Of a stretch of DNA of 64,000 nucleotides, positions 2,306 through 9,844 are shown piece after piece. The notes beneath the pieces are model-generated. The model made no database searches, was not told where the DNA came from, and was given only the letters and a program-made list of their open reading frames with translations. The stretch is from an uncultured Methanomicrobiales archaeon (GTDB lineage: Archaea > Halobacteriota > Methanomicrobia > Methanomicrobiales > Methanospirillaceae), in NCBI GenBank assembly GCA_903926075.1, contig CAIYHQ010000111.1:62001-126000 (forward strand). Direction: 5' to 3'. The translations under genes and the position numbers were made by a program. Position 1 is the stretch's first letter, and the number at the start of each line of letters is the position of its first letter.

Positions 2306-2322
2306 AAATAAAAAAATTAAAT
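2306..2322 (-). terminator. Poly-T terminator for the M42/aminotransferase/hexuloisomerase operon
   Basis: Read on the minus strand past the stop at 2317, the sequence has two adjacent T tracts (T7 then T5), the usual archaeal termination signal. It also separates the two convergent genes. Confidence 0.45.
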
Positions 2323-3351
2323 TTTTGGTCTTGTTTTTAATGCTTCAACAATCATCTTTACTGCAAGATCAATGTCTTTTAATTCGAGTATTTCGACAGG
2401 AGAATGAATATATCGGGTCGGAATACTTACTGTTGTGCTGGGAATCCCGCCCCTTTCAAGATGTATTGTGGTAGCATCTGTTGTGCCTCCGCTCCCTACT
2501 TCGAGCTGAAATGGAATGTCAATCGATTTTGCTGCTTCCTTAAGCCAGTCAACAACTCTTCTGTCTGCAATAAGACCCCGGCCGCTTGAATCAACTATGG
2601 TTATAACAGGTCCCTTTCCCATCTCAACAGGAGCATCTTTCTTTTCTATACCAGGGTGATCACCTGGAATTGTCACATCTGTCGCTATTGCACAGTCAGG
2701 TTTTATTAAATAAGCACTTGTTTTTGCTCCTTTCAACCCTACTTCTTCCTGAACAGTGAATACTGCATATACAGTATTTGAAGTTTCCATTCTCTTCATA
2801 ACTTCAATTAACATTGCAACTCCGGCACGGTTGTCAAAAGCTTTCCCTGTGACCCTGCCGTTCGCAAGTTCATAAAAATCCCGGTCAATTGTAATAGGGG
2901 TGCCGATATCAATTCCCAGGGCTAATACTTCTTCCATTGTGGAAGCGCCAATATCAATAAACATATCTTCGATTTTTACTCCTTTTTTCCGCTCTTCATC
3001 ATCCATTTTGTGTGGTGGTTTCCCCCCTATCACACCCCTTACAGGACCGACAGAACCAGGGAGAACCACTCTCTGGGCGGATAAAGTAGGAGCATAAAAC
3101 GAACCAATAGTAACGAAGCGAATGAAACCTTTCTCGTCAATAAATTTCACCATGAGCCCTATTTCATCCATGTGGGCCGCAAGCATCACTTTAAAATCAT
3201 TCCCTTTTTTTACGGCAACCAGATTTCCCATCGTGTCCTCATAGAGTTCATCAACATGGGATTCAATCTCGTTTCGAATAATACTCCTGATTCCTTCTTC
3301 TCTCCCTGACAAACCATGTGCTTCGGAGAGTTTTTTTAACAACTCTTTCAT
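2317..3351 (-). CDS. M42 family metallopeptidase (tetrahedral aminopeptidase type)
   Basis: Cytosolic dinuclear-metal aminopeptidase, expected to trim peptides released by the proteasome or taken up by the cell. Counting from the upstream GTG, the metal and catalytic motifs of the M42 family are in place: AAHMDEIG near 62-69 (His and Asp), KAFDNRAG near 174-181 (bridging Asp), VQEEVGLKGA near 204-213 (catalytic Glu pair), ATDVTIPGD near 227-235 and the late histidine in RYIHSPVE. Length, about 345, is normal. ATG 3351 is preferred over GTG 3363 because AGGGTG lies 9 nt upstream of it. The gene is last in a three-gene operon behind the aminotransferase, whose stop is at 3357. Some M42 members were once called endoglucanases; peptidase is the better call. 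Confidence 0.9.
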   Translation of the reverse strand: MKELLKKLSEAHGLSGREEGIRSIIRNEIESHVDELYEDTMGNLVAVKKGNDFKVMLAAHMDEIGLMVKFIDEKGFIRFVTIGSFYAPTLSAQRVVLPGSVGPVRGVIGGKPPHKMDDEERKKGVKIEDMFIDIGASTMEEVLALGIDIGTPITIDRDFYELANGRVTGKAFDNRAGVAMLIEVMKRMETSNTVYAVFTVQEEVGLKGAKTSAYLIKPDCAIATDVTIPGDHPGIEKKDAPVEMGKGPVITIVDSSGRGLIADRRVVDWLKEAAKSIDIPFQLEVGSGGTTDATTIHLERGGIPSTTVSIPTRYIHSPVEILELKDIDLAVKMIVEALKTRPKI

Positions 3352-3356
3352 AATAT

Positions 3357-4460
3357 TTAACACCCTGATATTACCTTCGTCATTCTTTGAACTGCACTAC
3401 TTAGGATTTCTTTGTTTTGGGCATAACTCATCCTCGCAAAACCTGCTCCCCTCTCCCCAAAGGCTTTACCAGGCACAAGGATTACACCACTTTGAATAAT
3501 CTTTGCGTATACTGATTCTTCAAGAGGTATGAACATATAAAAGGCCCCTTCAGGACGGTTAAACCGAAGCCCGGCGCGAGAAAGTCCTTCATAAACAATG
3601 TCACGCCGGAGTTTGTATTCATCACGCATTTTTGTTACCATGTCCTGTGGTCCCCGAAGTGCGGCTAAACCTGCATATTGAGATATTGATGTTGCACAGG
3701 CCTGGCAGTACTGGTGGACTTTCATACATTCATTTACACATTCTTCAGAAGCTGCAAGATATCCAAGCCGCCAGCCTGTCATTGCGTATGTTTTTGAAAA
3801 TGCATTCACAGTCACGACATTGTCTCCAAAACGGGCAGCACTGGTGTGCTTTTTTTCATAGATGAAGTGTTCGTAGACTTCATCGGAAATGACCGGAACA
3901 TTGCAGTCGTCTGCATATTCAACAATAGCACGGACAGTTTCTTCAGGTTCAACCATGCCGGTGGGATTTGCAGGACTGTTGAGAATAATAACTCCTGCCC
4001 CTTTTATCTTTTCCTTTGCAGCTTCTACATTAATGTGCAGGGTTTCATCCAGCGGAATCCCATCAGGTTTTCCTCCTGCGATAAGACCGAGAGCTGAATA
4101 AGCTACAAACCCCGGTTCAGGATGAAGCACACGGTCACCACGTTCTACGAGGGCCTGCAAAACGATGTGAAGAGCTTCACTCCCTCCTGCAGTGACGAGG
4201 ATCTGGTCAGGAGTTATCGATATTGAATTTTCTTTAAACAATTTCTTTGAGATCTCCTCTCGAAGTTCAGGTAAACCTGCATTATGAGTGTAACCCGTTT
4301 TTCCTTCTTTAATCGCAGTGATAGCCGCTTCTTTGATTGAATCCGGAGTATCAAAATCAGGTTGCCCAAGCCCTAGATTAATTGAACCTGGAGGAGCGCC
4401 CTCAAATAATTTTCTTATACCTGACAAATCAACAGATAATACTCGCTCAGAAAACCGCAT
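3357..4460 (-). CDS. PLP-dependent class I/II aminotransferase
   Basis: Transfers an amino group between an amino acid and a 2-oxo acid. Fold type I signatures are clear: LGQPDFDTP near the N-terminus, NSPANPTG, SDEVYEHFIY and the PLP-lysine motif FSKTYAMTGWRLGY. Length, about 367, fits the aspartate/alanine/aromatic aminotransferase superfamily; the substrate cannot be read from sequence. The longest frame begins at 4481 inside the hexuloisomerase gene. ATG 4460 is preferred because a GAGTGA ribosome-binding sequence precedes it and because the protein then begins MRFSERV, as homologues do. It lies between hxlB and the M42 peptidase gene with almost no spacing, so the three are likely one transcript. 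Confidence 0.88.
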   Translation of the reverse strand: MRFSERVLSVDLSGIRKLFEGAPPGSINLGLGQPDFDTPDSIKEAAITAIKEGKTGYTHNAGLPELREEISKKLFKENSISITPDQILVTAGGSEALHIVLQALVERGDRVLHPEPGFVAYSALGLIAGGKPDGIPLDETLHINVEAAKEKIKGAGVIILNSPANPTGMVEPEETVRAIVEYADDCNVPVISDEVYEHFIYEKKHTSAARFGDNVVTVNAFSKTYAMTGWRLGYLAASEECVNECMKVHQYCQACATSISQYAGLAALRGPQDMVTKMRDEYKLRRDIVYEGLSRAGLRFNRPEGAFYMFIPLEESVYAKIIQSGVILVPGKAFGERGAGFARMSYAQNKEILSSAVQRMTKVISGC

Positions 4461-4467
4461 AGTCTTT

Positions 4468-5067
4468 TCACTCAAGCACATTGTGTCGCTTTTTTAATTC
4501 CACTTCATCAGTCTTTGTAACTACCATAAGCCTTGAGATACATGCATCAGCAAAGATCATAGAAGCTGTCTCAAACAGTGTGCCCAATGGAGCAAAAGAA
4601 TGATGCTTTCCCATCATCTGGCGTATTTCATATTCCATATTATCTTCGCGTATGAAGTCACGTTGATTCTCAATTTCAACAACGCAATCTGCCATATTTC
4701 CTATTCGTGAATCTGCATTTGAAGTAATAAGTGAAAGGCGTGCACCAATCTCTTTTGCCATCTCTGCAATGTCTGCAACAGTTTTTGTACGTCCGGACCC
4801 TGAGAAGATGACAACAAGATCACCGGGTTTCAGTGCAGGAGTTATAGTCTCCCCTGCCACGTATGAAATAAGACCTAGGTGCATCAATCTCATGGCAAAC
4901 CCTTTTGCCACGAGACCTGATCTCCCGGCACCAATTACATAGATCCGTTTAGCCCTCAAAATCTCATCAATAAAACAATCAGTCTGTGAATTTGAGAGTT
5001 TATTTGCAATAGTGCAGATACGCTCTGCCATGAGGCACATCATATCTTTAACCTGGTTACTTTCCAT
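4468..5067 (-). CDS. hxlB: 6-phospho-3-hexuloisomerase (SIS domain)
   Basis: Converts 3-hexulose 6-phosphate to fructose 6-phosphate. In archaea lacking the pentose phosphate pathway this runs in reverse with hexulose-phosphate synthase to make ribulose 5-phosphate, releasing formaldehyde. The 199-residue protein is one SIS domain with IYVIGAGRSGLVAKGFAMRL, GETITPALKPGDLVV and FSGSGRTKTV, matching the hexuloisomerase subgroup in length and motifs. GGGAG lies about 6 nt before the ATG at 5067. It heads the operon hxlB-aminotransferase-M42 peptidase. No hexulose-phosphate synthase gene is in the window. Confidence 0.88.
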   Translation of the reverse strand: MESNQVKDMMCLMAERICTIANKLSNSQTDCFIDEILRAKRIYVIGAGRSGLVAKGFAMRLMHLGLISYVAGETITPALKPGDLVVIFSGSGRTKTVADIAEMAKEIGARLSLITSNADSRIGNMADCVVEIENQRDFIREDNMEYEIRQMMGKHHSFAPLGTLFETASMIFADACISRLMVVTKTDEVELKKRHNVLE

Positions 5068-5188: not shown

Positions 5189-6886
5189 TTAAAATTTTAT
5201 TGTTTTTTCAATTCTACCTGCTTTAAAAACGCTGATTGTCCCGCCACTCTGCGAGACAACAACCCCTATCGCACGCGTAATCTGTGTTATTCCGGCGACA
5301 GATGAATGACGTGTACCAAGACCTTCCGGAATTAAGAGTGTTGATTGATTGGGTACCAGATGACGGCATGATGCAACGGCAAATCCATCACCCTGGACAA
5401 CGAATGCACCATCAAGCTGAGCCAGGTTTTTGATATTCTCCCTATTCAGGGGATTAGTTACCATTCTCTTATCTATCGGATGACCTTCAAGTGCGTTTAA
5501 TCCACATTGACGGGAGTGCTCCATAACAGCCTCTGAATCACCGATAATAAAAGATGTTCCAATGGTCTTTCCTTCTCTTCCTTCCCTTGCTATCTGCTGG
5601 CAGATAAGGAAAACACTTTCAAAAACATTTTCAGAAACGTCTGAATCCTCAACCAGTTTATAGATCCAAGGAATTCTAAGTCTAAGTTCACCCTTATTTT
5701 CGTGGTCAGTTATATCCTGTCCGATAAGAAGAAGTTCAGTTAAACGGCCTTTTTCATTTTTAATGGATTTTGCAGTCCATGCTACATTTGCGTAGTAATT
5801 ATCACCAAGTGGGTGTTCATAAATATGTATAGCAGTCTCATCTGGAAATAAATCAACACCATTAATTAAAACTGAAAAGTCTTTCTCTGAACGTGAATTT
5901 TCAGTAATTAGTGTTCCCACAATCGGTTTACCAAGGATTTCCCTTGGATCCGACTTGAAAAAAATTTCTGCAGAGCGGTTTATAAAAAGAATTGTTCCTT
6001 CACTATCAGTTTTTACAATTAAAGATGAGGAACTATCTACCAGTTCCTGGTTACGGAGTTCCAAAACCCGTAATGCATTTTTAAGTTTCTGTTCTTCACT
6101 CTTGTCTTCAAATATGACTATATCTCCGCGTAAAGGATCTTTAAGGTCTATCCTACGCACCGAAACGGAACAAAAAGTCCTATTACCATTGATATTTGAA
6201 ATAAATGAAGAGAGTTCATAAAATTTTTCATCTGATGCCCTACCATCAAAATAACTCTTTATTGTCAGGTAATCTGATTTATCGCAAAAAATCTCCTCAA
6301 AATTAGTTCCAGGGAGACTGGATACTCCAGTACCGACAAGATCAGAAAAACGACTGTTTCCCCAGGTAATCTTCCCGGATTCAATGGTGCATAGTGCAAG
6401 GGGTGTTACAGAAAGGACATCATTTAAAAAAGTATTCCTAAGTTTCAGGTCATTTTCTGCTTTTTTCCTGACAACTGCCTGCTTAACCATGTGTAAAAGA
6501 GCGGGAGTCCCCTTCCTAACATCATTGCCTTTCCTGAACTCCCCAACATTATTTACATCCATGAAAAGAAGGTCTTCATGAAGATTTTTTATATAAAGAA
6601 TAAATGGAAGATTGATTCCTTGCCTCCTAAGGCTTTGAAGCATCTCTATTCCTGTAAGTTCCGGTAAAAATTCAATACCGCTTATCCTGGGTATGTAAGC
6701 ATATGAAATTACAAGGTCATGTCGTCGTGAAAGTGCTTTATCAAGAGCTTCTTTTGTGCTATGTGCAACATCAAGACGGATTTCACTAACATTAAGAAGT
6801 ATTGAACGGATATTCTCCAAAACAGGAGTGCCATCAACTACAAGAAGCACTGATATCAGAAGAACCACCTTTGAACAATAATGCAA
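5189..6886 (-). CDS. Degenerate receiver - PAS - diadenylate cyclase (DAC) sensor protein
   Basis: Predicted to make cyclic di-AMP from two ATP. The C-terminal 130 residues or so form a DisA_N/DAC domain: GTSFIIGD, catalytic DGA at 492-494, and the RHR-type motif as GTRHSSVAG near 524-532. The first 130 residues look like a receiver (LLVVDGTP, DLVISYAYIPRISGIEFL), but the phospho-acceptor Asp position holds Tyr, so it is probably not phosphorylated. Two PAS domains lie between (about 145-270 and 280-400), the second with ILFINRSAEIFF and LGKPIVGTLI. No membrane segment is convincing, so the sensor is cytoplasmic. The start may be GTG a few codons downstream. The minus-strand gene stands alone between thiD and hxlB. 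Confidence 0.82.
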   Translation of the reverse strand: MHYCSKVVLLISVLLVVDGTPVLENIRSILLNVSEIRLDVAHSTKEALDKALSRRHDLVISYAYIPRISGIEFLPELTGIEMLQSLRRQGINLPFILYIKNLHEDLLFMDVNNVGEFRKGNDVRKGTPALLHMVKQAVVRKKAENDLKLRNTFLNDVLSVTPLALCTIESGKITWGNSRFSDLVGTGVSSLPGTNFEEIFCDKSDYLTIKSYFDGRASDEKFYELSSFISNINGNRTFCSVSVRRIDLKDPLRGDIVIFEDKSEEQKLKNALRVLELRNQELVDSSSSLIVKTDSEGTILFINRSAEIFFKSDPREILGKPIVGTLITENSRSEKDFSVLINGVDLFPDETAIHIYEHPLGDNYYANVAWTAKSIKNEKGRLTELLLIGQDITDHENKGELRLRIPWIYKLVEDSDVSENVFESVFLICQQIAREGREGKTIGTSFIIGDSEAVMEHSRQCGLNALEGHPIDKRMVTNPLNRENIKNLAQLDGAFVVQGDGFAVASCRHLVPNQSTLLIPEGLGTRHSSVAGITQITRAIGVVVSQSGGTISVFKAGRIEKTIKF

Positions 6887-7825: not shown

Positions 7826-9844
7826 TTATTCCGGATATAGTATAATAAGTCCCAGTCGTGTTACTTTACCTGGATTAACACGGACTGGATACTCTTTGAA
7901 CCAGTAGTCTGATAATGCTACTTTGACGGTATGCATACCGGTTGGCACATTTGGAATAAGATATGGTGTCTTACCCTTAAGGACATTATCTAGATAAACC
8001 TCGGCTCCTGACGGCATTGAACGTACTAGTACAGATCCCTGATTTGGTAAAATTGTAGGGCCGGGTTTCATTATTACTAATGGTATCCTCGTTATCTGCC
8101 CTACTTTTACCATTGCCATTACCGGATAATCCTGATAGCCCTGCATCGAGTAAATTACTGAGTGAAGTCCTATTGGAACTGCAATTACAGATGGTGACTG
8201 GCCAACTGCAACTCCGTCTACTGATATAACAGCTCCTCTCGGTAATGAATCAACCATTATCCCGCCTTTCTGGTCAGGTGGAACCTGCTGAACAGTTATC
8301 ATATCCTTAGCAAACCGGGTACTAGTCTGGTTTGCACCATTCCAGACAGTCAATGCAACTGAATAGACACCCATCGTTGTGAAAGTGTGTGTCGGATTCA
8401 TGCCAGTAGCGTTAATTGAACCATCACCGAAATTCCATTCCCATCTCACAGGTGAACCTGATGAGGTGTCACTGAAAACGGATACAAGGGGTGCAGTTCC
8501 AGTCACAGGGCTTGCAGTGAAGTTTGCAACAAGGTTTGTTGGGGTCGGAGTTGCTGTCGGAGTGGTTATCGGGGTCAGAGTAACAGAGATAGGGATTGTC
8601 TGGTCTTTCAATGGATTTCCAGCGATAGTCAGGGTCGAAGTCTGATATCCTGTCATGGAAACAACAACCGTGTGCCCTGGTGTCGCTGAAGTATAAACAC
8701 CAACATTCACCGGAGATTTTCCCTGATAAACGCCATCAAAGGTTACATCAGCACCGCTTGGACTAGAGGATATTGCATAATATCCCCTGTCTCCTCCAAC
8801 CTCTCCGATAGTAAGGGTTCCAGGACCTATGGAAGGTACAATCGGATTCCCTGAGTCATCATCCATCTTAATTACTGCCGGCATCACGAGAGTCGTCCCA
8901 TTTATGTAACCACTGACGAGAACCGATCCAAGGACAACATTTGTGTCACCTGGTTTCCAACAGTTGTTCAGATCAACTGCAGTCATCCAGATAGAGGATG
9001 CGGGAACCGTAGAATTTGATCTGAGCTGTATGCAATCAGGGAAAGTTACTCCGATTATACTGCCAACAGAAGGGTTTGAAAGTGAAACTGACATGTTATA
9101 ACCAGATACACCCTGAGGTGCAGTATTAAGTATTATCGGAAGAAGTACAGTCCCGCCAACGGGCACCGATGCATTCTGAACACTTAATACCTGACCTGTC
9201 GGTGTTTGAGTCGGTGTCACAGTTACGGTCGGTGTCACAGTTGGAGTGGGTAATACAACAGGAATCACCTTTTCAGCGATAATTGTGCCGTTCACTCTAA
9301 TTCCTACAATCACAAACCCGTTACTGATATCACTCATTGTAAAGCTGATTGTCGAATTTAGTGGCCCCTGTTTCTTTCCGCAAAGGTTGAGGCTCGTAAA
9401 AACCGCTGATGTATTAACACCGGTAGAGCCGTCAAGCTTCATATAGTCATAAACACCCGAACTGACATCCCTCGATTCCTGACGCGAGAAATTCCCATCT
9501 ATCGATGCTCCTTCCCAGATAACAGTTGTGTCCCCCTTCTTGACCATCACTGAATTATATAATGAGTCACGAATTTTTGCAGCAATAGTGCCCGAAGTCA
9601 GTGAAAAGGGCATGTTAAAGTTCGTCGCCTCGAACGTGAAATTTGTTCCAGGGTTTACCCTTAACCCGGAAGTAAGGTTAATACACAGATCTGCGTTATC
9701 AGGCAGATCCTGAAAAGCAATCGTCACCTGGTCCCCTTTGGTAATCTGGTTCGGCTGGATGTTAACTGATACCGCTGATGCCGCAGAGATTAAAAGGGCA
9801 AGTGAGAGTAATACCACAATGCCTACAATCCTTATATCTCTCAT
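7826..9844 (-). CDS. Large secreted surface protein: DUF3821, cohesin-like, PEGA, PKD, PEGA, PEGA
   Basis: A 672-residue exported protein. The signal peptide (VVLLSLALLISAASA) is followed by a DUF3821-like N-terminal domain (about 25-200), a Thr/Pro linker, a cohesin-like beta domain (about 222-345, with ASVPVGGTVLLPIIL), a PEGA domain (about 355-430), a second Thr/Pro linker, a PKD domain (about 440-520, WEWNFGDGS) and two more PEGA domains (about 525-590 and 600-672). There is no C-terminal membrane anchor, so it is released or held non-covalently. DUF3821 is found mainly in Methanomicrobiales. AGGTGG lies about 6 nt before the ATG and a TATA box at about 9891-9905. The function is unknown beyond a cell-surface role. 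Confidence 0.85.
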   Translation of the reverse strand: MRDIRIVGIVVLLSLALLISAASAVSVNIQPNQITKGDQVTIAFQDLPDNADLCINLTSGLRVNPGTNFTFEATNFNMPFSLTSGTIAAKIRDSLYNSVMVKKGDTTVIWEGASIDGNFSRQESRDVSSGVYDYMKLDGSTGVNTSAVFTSLNLCGKKQGPLNSTISFTMSDISNGFVIVGIRVNGTIIAEKVIPVVLPTPTVTPTVTVTPTQTPTGQVLSVQNASVPVGGTVLLPIILNTAPQGVSGYNMSVSLSNPSVGSIIGVTFPDCIQLRSNSTVPASSIWMTAVDLNNCWKPGDTNVVLGSVLVSGYINGTTLVMPAVIKMDDDSGNPIVPSIGPGTLTIGEVGGDRGYYAISSSPSGADVTFDGVYQGKSPVNVGVYTSATPGHTVVVSMTGYQTSTLTIAGNPLKDQTIPISVTLTPITTPTATPTPTNLVANFTASPVTGTAPLVSVFSDTSSGSPVRWEWNFGDGSINATGMNPTHTFTTMGVYSVALTVWNGANQTSTRFAKDMITVQQVPPDQKGGIMVDSLPRGAVISVDGVAVGQSPSVIAVPIGLHSVIYSMQGYQDYPVMAMVKVGQITRIPLVIMKPGPTILPNQGSVLVRSMPSGAEVYLDNVLKGKTPYLIPNVPTGMHTVKVALSDYWFKEYPVRVNPGKVTRLGLIILYPE

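Follow-up and report, generated by a model that had tools for sequence, protein, structure and literature searches.

The gene at 5189-6886 on the reverse strand of the stretch of DNA analysed here (64,000 nucleotides of contig CAIYHQ010000111.1, from an uncultured archaeon of the Methanospirillaceae; hereafter the window) encodes a protein in which an aspartate-less receiver domain and two PAS domains precede a diadenylate cyclase (DAC) domain. With a probability of about two in three it is a c-di-AMP synthase which is located in the cytosol and controlled by its sensors, and in which a PAS dimer sets the pairing of the DAC domains and the pseudo-receiver acts independently of phosphorylation. 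The evidence comes from the domain architecture and predicted fold, from the retained ATP site, from the recurrence of the same architecture in related methanogens, and from its position as the only DAC in several of them. The features are collected in Table 1.

Table 1. Positions in the window of the DAC gene, of the domains and motifs of its product, and of the downstream genes.
Feature	Position	Strand	Basis or remark
ORF, receiver-like/PAS/PAS/DAC protein	5189-6886	(-)	565 aa counted from TTG at 6886
Codon 10, CTG	6857..6859	(-)	Probable true start; GGTGG 5 nt upstream at 6865-6869
Asp-less receiver domain, residues 10-120	6527..6859	(-)	Pfam Response_reg; AF2 alpha/beta secondary structure; homology to REC-PAS-PAS kinase receivers
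Tyr62 at phospho-acceptor position	6701..6703	(-)	Tyr in 58/66 homologues, Asp in related kinases
Long helix 123-160, receiver to PAS1	6407..6520	(-)	AF2/DSSP; possible signalling helix
PAS1, residues about 149-262	6101..6442	(-)	Second Pfam PAS stretch; AF2; PAS-PAS fold matches
PAS2, residues about 272-394	5705..6073	(-)	PAS_9 and PAS at 279-394; AF2; FixL/MmoS PAS-pair matches
DAC domain, residues 433-558	5213..5590	(-)	PF02457; model pLDDT 92.9; PDB matches DisA, CdaA, DacA
DGA motif, residues 492-494	5405..5413	(-)	Asp492 = ribose-binding Asp71 of Listeria CdaA (PMC7288161)
GTRHS, residues 524-528	5303..5317	(-)	T525, R526, H527 = CdaA T102, R103, H104; third RHR position Ser
SQS, residues 545-547	5246..5254	(-)	At SEE motif, phosphate and metal site
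HxlB, SIS-domain 6-phospho-3-hexuloisomerase-like, downstream	4468..5067	(-)	NCBIfam TIGR03127, E=9.9e-54
PLP aminotransferase, class I/II, downstream	3357..4481	(-)	
M42 aminopeptidase, downstream	2317..3363	(-)	

Gene and Domain Architecture

The frame is open across all 565 codons from the annotated TTG; this start probably lies about nine codons too early, as far as the alignment indicates, and leaves the N-terminus uncertain by about nine residues. Residue 10 is Met in 61 of the 66 homologues and is encoded by CTG in the window copy, where this codon (6857-6859), with GGTGG upstream, may represent a rare CTG start; the alternatives are GTG at codon 7 and TTG at codon 1.

Pfam profiles identified in the window protein the DAC domain (PF02457, residues 433-558, E=2.2e-18, 66.4 bits versus a cut-off of 27), PAS_9 in two stretches (E=4.7e-12), and Response_reg at residues 15-78 with 26.5 bits (E=7.7e-06), which is under the cut-off of 30.2. 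Even so, its assignment as a receiver is supported, because the homologue L047 (probably from Methanoregula boonei) exceeds the cut-off with 35.7 bits and because the receiver profile recovers the canonical receivers of REC-PAS-PAS kinases. The full-length AF2 model, obtained with a 33-sequence alignment, has a mean pLDDT of 81.9 and a pTM of 0.43: each domain is well formed, while their mutual arrangement is not confidently predicted; in this model helices 123-160 and 263-285 connect the receiver, PAS1, and PAS2. Both the Pfam stretches and the model thus bear out the two PAS domains which the initial annotation had placed between receiver and DAC domain. PAS1 is the least conserved domain of the protein (mean identity 43% versus 51% for the receiver). 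The full-length fold search returned the PAS pairs of FixL and MmoS, matches which show fold only, and neither a haem His of the FixL type nor a LOV Cys was noticed on inspection of the PAS domains by eye.

Since PAS pairs dominated the full-length fold search, a DAC-only model was built for residues 405-565 from 30 sequences. It reached a pLDDT of 92.9 and a pTM of 0.89, and every one of its best 50 PDB fold matches was a diadenylate cyclase, whether of the DisA, the CdaA/DacA, or the CdaM/DacM kind. This agrees with the DAC fold first proposed for the C-terminal domain, for which a different predicted fold would have been the refutation.

DAC Active Site

For the ATP site of Listeria CdaA, PMC7288161 names the side chains of Leu31, Asp71, Thr102, Arg103, His104, and Ser122, with Glu124 as a metal ligand. 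By alignment and inspection these correspond to F446, D492, T525, R526, H527, and S545 of the window protein, while Glu124 corresponds to S547; all of them are retained or conservatively replaced with the exception of the metal ligand, and Ser at that position is also found in archaeal DacZ (SESGG or SQSGG). F446 is invariant in alignment A1, D492, R526, H527, and S545 are invariant in the 66 homologues, and T525 is present in 65 of the 66; within the DGA motif Asp and Gly are invariant in this set and Ala occurs in 64. The loss of an ATP-binding residue would have spoken against a DAC enzyme, and D492, T525, R526, H527, and S545 are all in place.

The initial annotation stated that both DAC motifs are kept, and DGA (492-494) and GTRHSSVAG (524-532) indeed lie where it had placed them, but the canonical GxRHRxA reads GTRHSSVA in the window protein, so that the last Arg of RHR is a Ser. 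Nearly every homologue has RHN, RHS, or RHA, and most of the archaeal DacZ sampled carry V, M, I, L, or A as the third residue; because archaeal DacZ vary at this position, a Ser there is no sign of inactivity in archaea, and an RHR of the bacterial type does not define the archaeal DACs. An inactivation of the DAC domain through the change from RHR to RHS was not accepted on this ground and because the third Arg is not among the ATP contacts listed for CdaA (PMC7288161).

Pseudo-Receiver Domain

The receiver-like N-terminus with Tyr in place of the phospho-acceptor, proposed from the window sequence, proved to be a property of the homologues as well. In the acceptor column of 66 full-length homologues Tyr occurs 58 times, Gly 3, Phe 2, and Cys 2 times, with one gap and no Asp, and Tyr62 aligns with the Asp of SDYQMP in REC-PAS-PAS kinases. 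As the Asp is missing, the receiver cannot join Asp phosphotransfer, and its absence across the 66 homologues agrees with the earlier view of a nonphosphorylated module. The protein therefore stands outside the two-component response regulators, which have a phosphorylatable Asp, and among the aspartate-less receivers, which have the receiver fold without it. The latter, including RitR, FrzS, and ChxR, are phosphorylation-independent regulators according to the accessible part of PMC4395418; in the survey given there an aromatic acceptor is rare (23 sequences with Phe or Tyr), and a DAC fusion is not described among the aspartate-less receivers in that part. That the phospho-Asp is so consistently absent suggests a receiver which has exchanged phosphorylation for another use.

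Outside DAC proteins, the nearest receivers are those of histidine kinases with a REC-PAS-PAS input which are encoded in the same genomes. These kinases (L229-L233) share the order of input domains and give the closest receiver matches, but their C-terminal part is a kinase and their receivers retain the Asp (SDYQMP), while the window protein has neither. Judging from this homology, the input module was most likely taken over from such kinases within the lineage, became fused to DAC, and lost the Asp afterwards, the direction of the change being what we infer. The DAC proteins of the family carry an insertion of about 9 residues after beta-3 which the kinase relatives lack, and both the insertion and the Tyr are absent in relatives from other families (L147, L157, and L158).

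It is conceivable, though rather unlikely, that the pseudo-receiver serves as a product sensor, with a site for c-di-AMP or a different nucleotide inside the remodelled pocket or next to it, and exerts feedback on the DAC domain. The ShkA pseudo-receiver, which binds c-di-GMP (6QRL; listed in PMC7288161), offers a precedent, and the conservation of the receiver above that of PAS1 despite the loss of Asp, the nearly fixed Tyr, and the insertion point in the same direction; however, no binding motif was found in the receiver, and the lack of insertion and Tyr in L147, L157, and L158 argues against such a role.

Distribution and Phylogeny

The distribution of the architecture was assessed with a profile of 14 homologues, where matches extending over the input domains and the DAC domain with a best E below 1e-100 were counted. 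The architecture is present in 92 of the 108 genomes of the window's family and in 11 of the 124 other genomes of the order, while none of the 240 genomes taken from the rest of the phylum has it, the matches there being stand-alone DACs of 250-320 aa which cover the DAC columns only. In the scan of named genomes full-length matches were limited to Methanoregula, Methanolinea, and other Methanomicrobiales, followed by DAC-only matches in Methanoperedens and others. Confinement to Methanomicrobiales, raised as a question by the initial annotation, thus holds in the genomes sampled, while the idea of an isolated fusion gives way to that of the usual DAC of its family. A unique or misassembled fusion was likewise rejected in view of this recurrence. 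In seven single-contig genomes (G015, G033, G034, G065, G068, G069, and G070) the protein with this architecture is the only DAC, so that it has to be the active synthase in these archaea, provided that they produce c-di-AMP.

The window's genome, in an assembly which is 97% complete, has two DACs in total and no DacZ, so the coexistence of a DacZ gene considered earlier was not observed. Its second DAC (L001:190-1902, contig C34; 570 aa) has two predicted membrane segments and is arranged as an N-terminal membrane segment, TPR repeats, the second membrane segment, and a cytosolic DAC domain. A similar TPR-membrane DAC is found in the Methanospirillum-type L003.

A more far-reaching interpretation is that DacZ was replaced throughout the lineage by a synthase with a kinase-derived Tyr pseudo-receiver, whose former phosphorylation pocket would bind c-di-AMP or a metabolite and exert allosteric control; as a whole this is doubtful.

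In the tree of DAC domains (n=88) the fused and membrane DACs form a clade apart from DacZ, supported at 100/100. The window protein falls into this clade on a long branch, together with the divergent paralogues L040, L067, L044, L048, and L070. The full-length tree, in which the window copy has a branch of 1.03 and which is to be read with the caution due to long branches, concurs on this grouping. The identity of the window DAC domain is 57% versus 71% among the others. Because the window copy groups with other long branches, it is only a possible strict orthologue of the main protein of Methanoregula/Methanolinea. It is a fast-evolving copy, with a possibly relaxed or altered activity.

The long branch, together with RHS in place of RHR, the divergent segment 508-520 (RHLVPNQSTLL versus RYITVDTSxVxI), and the second DAC in the same genome, could also mean that this gene is decaying or has been repurposed, that its DAC retains little cyclase activity, and that the membrane-anchored L001 makes the c-di-AMP. 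This seems improbable: the frame is intact, the reported substrate-contact residues are retained, and RHx is common to the whole clade and to most DacZ. We know of no DAC domain which yields another product. That the clade makes a different one, a linear or mixed dinucleotide, is highly improbable; its separation from DacZ and the nearly invariant Gln546 at the position of CdaA Glu123 would favour it, but Glu123 is reported to act via its main chain (PMC7288161) and Gln stands at the same position in some DacZ.

Several other DAC proteins were encountered in these methanogens and their relatives. Two proteins of Candidatus Methanoperedens (L172:932-2725 and L179:3714-5513; 597-599 aa) are close relatives in the tree, and in L172 a Vps4/katanin-like AAA ATPase is fused to the DAC domain (AAA E=6.2e-38, Vps4_C, and a weak MIT); to our knowledge no ATPase-DAC fusion has been reported. 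L036:3405-5387 of genome G072, probably Methanosphaerula palustris, combines a PKD surface region, a membrane segment, and a DAC domain and is probably the published DacV. In L170 and L191/L216 the DAC domain is preceded by seven to nine membrane segments, as predicted from sequence. In genus g15 stand-alone DacZ-type proteins (L052, L059, and L068) have DGM for DGA with an intact RHR, and the genomes with these DGM proteins also carry a membrane DAC.

Genomic Neighbourhood

The HxlB, aminotransferase, and M42 genes downstream of the DAC gene are nearly contiguous (2317-5067), and a ThiD-type kinase gene lies upstream. The same three-gene block also adjoins REC-PAS-PAS-DAC genes in the distant Methanomicrobiales L150, L151, and L153. 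The region is flanked by PEGA-domain proteins (1433-2305 and 7826-9844), of which the second adds PKD, and both are likely surface proteins. A scan for sigma-70 promoters, a model unsuited to archaea, gave sites no more frequent than in shuffled sequence. TrkA_C and DHHA1 are present in the window's genome but uninformative, since both families occur also in control genomes without a DAC.

Comparison with Known DAC Classes

The genomes G033, G072, and G073 are presumably those of the DacX, DacV, and DacW strains, respectively, and the sole DAC of G033 is a REC-like/PAS/PAS/DAC protein. Since this single DAC has the architecture of the window protein, DacX most probably has it too, and the window protein most probably belongs to the DacX class, the definition of which is taken here from PMC6741144 alone. 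There five archaeal DAC classes, DacV to DacZ, are given after Corrigan & Gruendling, with DacX from Methanoregula boonei (A7I8S2), DacV from Methanosphaerula palustris, and DacW from Methanospirillum hungatei. The initial assumption that the known archaeal synthases are stand-alone proteins is contradicted by DacV, DacW, and DacX (PMC6741144), as the DACs of their genomes are multidomain or membrane proteins. DacX of M. boonei, if it is the protein of G033, has the same domains as the window protein with 38-39% full-length identity, the difference being the long branch of the window copy beside a set of divergent paralogues.

DacZ/DacY (CdaZ), for example, Haloferax volcanii DacZ, has the same catalytic domain, and NF041371 matches residues 408-559 of the window protein (E=7.3e-28). 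This match reaches, however, 97.6 bits, far under the cut-off of 430, DacZ forms the separate clade described above, and in place of its PK_C-like N-terminal domain the window protein has the REC/PAS N-terminus. With the bacterial CdaA/DacA of Listeria, B. subtilis, and S. aureus the fold and most of the reported ATP-contact residues are common, while RHR is changed to RHS, SEE to SQS, and the transmembrane helices are replaced by cytosolic sensors.

DAC outputs are not mentioned in the census of archaeal response regulators (PMC5847659), and no other description of the architecture was found in the literature search, the scope of which did not reach Corrigan & Gruendling 2013 and the 2023 review of DAC architectures. 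The REC-PAS-PAS-DAC arrangement thus appears to belong to an already named class, and the window protein is a good but not unique example. Less has been described about the fixed Tyr in the pseudo-receiver, about the probable descent of the input module from a kinase-like one, and about the use of this DAC instead of DacZ throughout the family.

Proposed Mechanism and Significance

In DAC enzymes two DAC domains, each with one ATP, have to meet face to face to form c-di-AMP. For the sensor-controlled synthase favoured here, the receiver-helix-PAS-helix-PAS stalk would dimerise and fix the two DAC domains in an arrangement which is either permitted or forbidden, and which may shift when a PAS domain binds a small molecule or cofactor. 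Ligand or redox control via the PAS domains is plausible from the domain content, and the receiver may be a fixed module whose role is structural or lies in the binding of partners or nucleotides. In the window's genome the synthesis of c-di-AMP would be shared with the one membrane-anchored TPR-DAC. No measured activity was found in the literature for any member of the clade.

As a soluble enzyme with recognisable sensor domains, the family provides a testable system for the question of which signal controls archaeal c-di-AMP synthesis; among closed genomes of the Methanoregula type, several have this enzyme as their only DAC. DAC fusions are varied in this group of methanogens and in its relatives, comprising receiver/PAS, TPR-membrane, PKD-membrane, multi-membrane, and AAA ATPase forms, and this variety suggests that c-di-AMP signalling has expanded locally, in a way that resembles the bacterial c-di-GMP enzymes.
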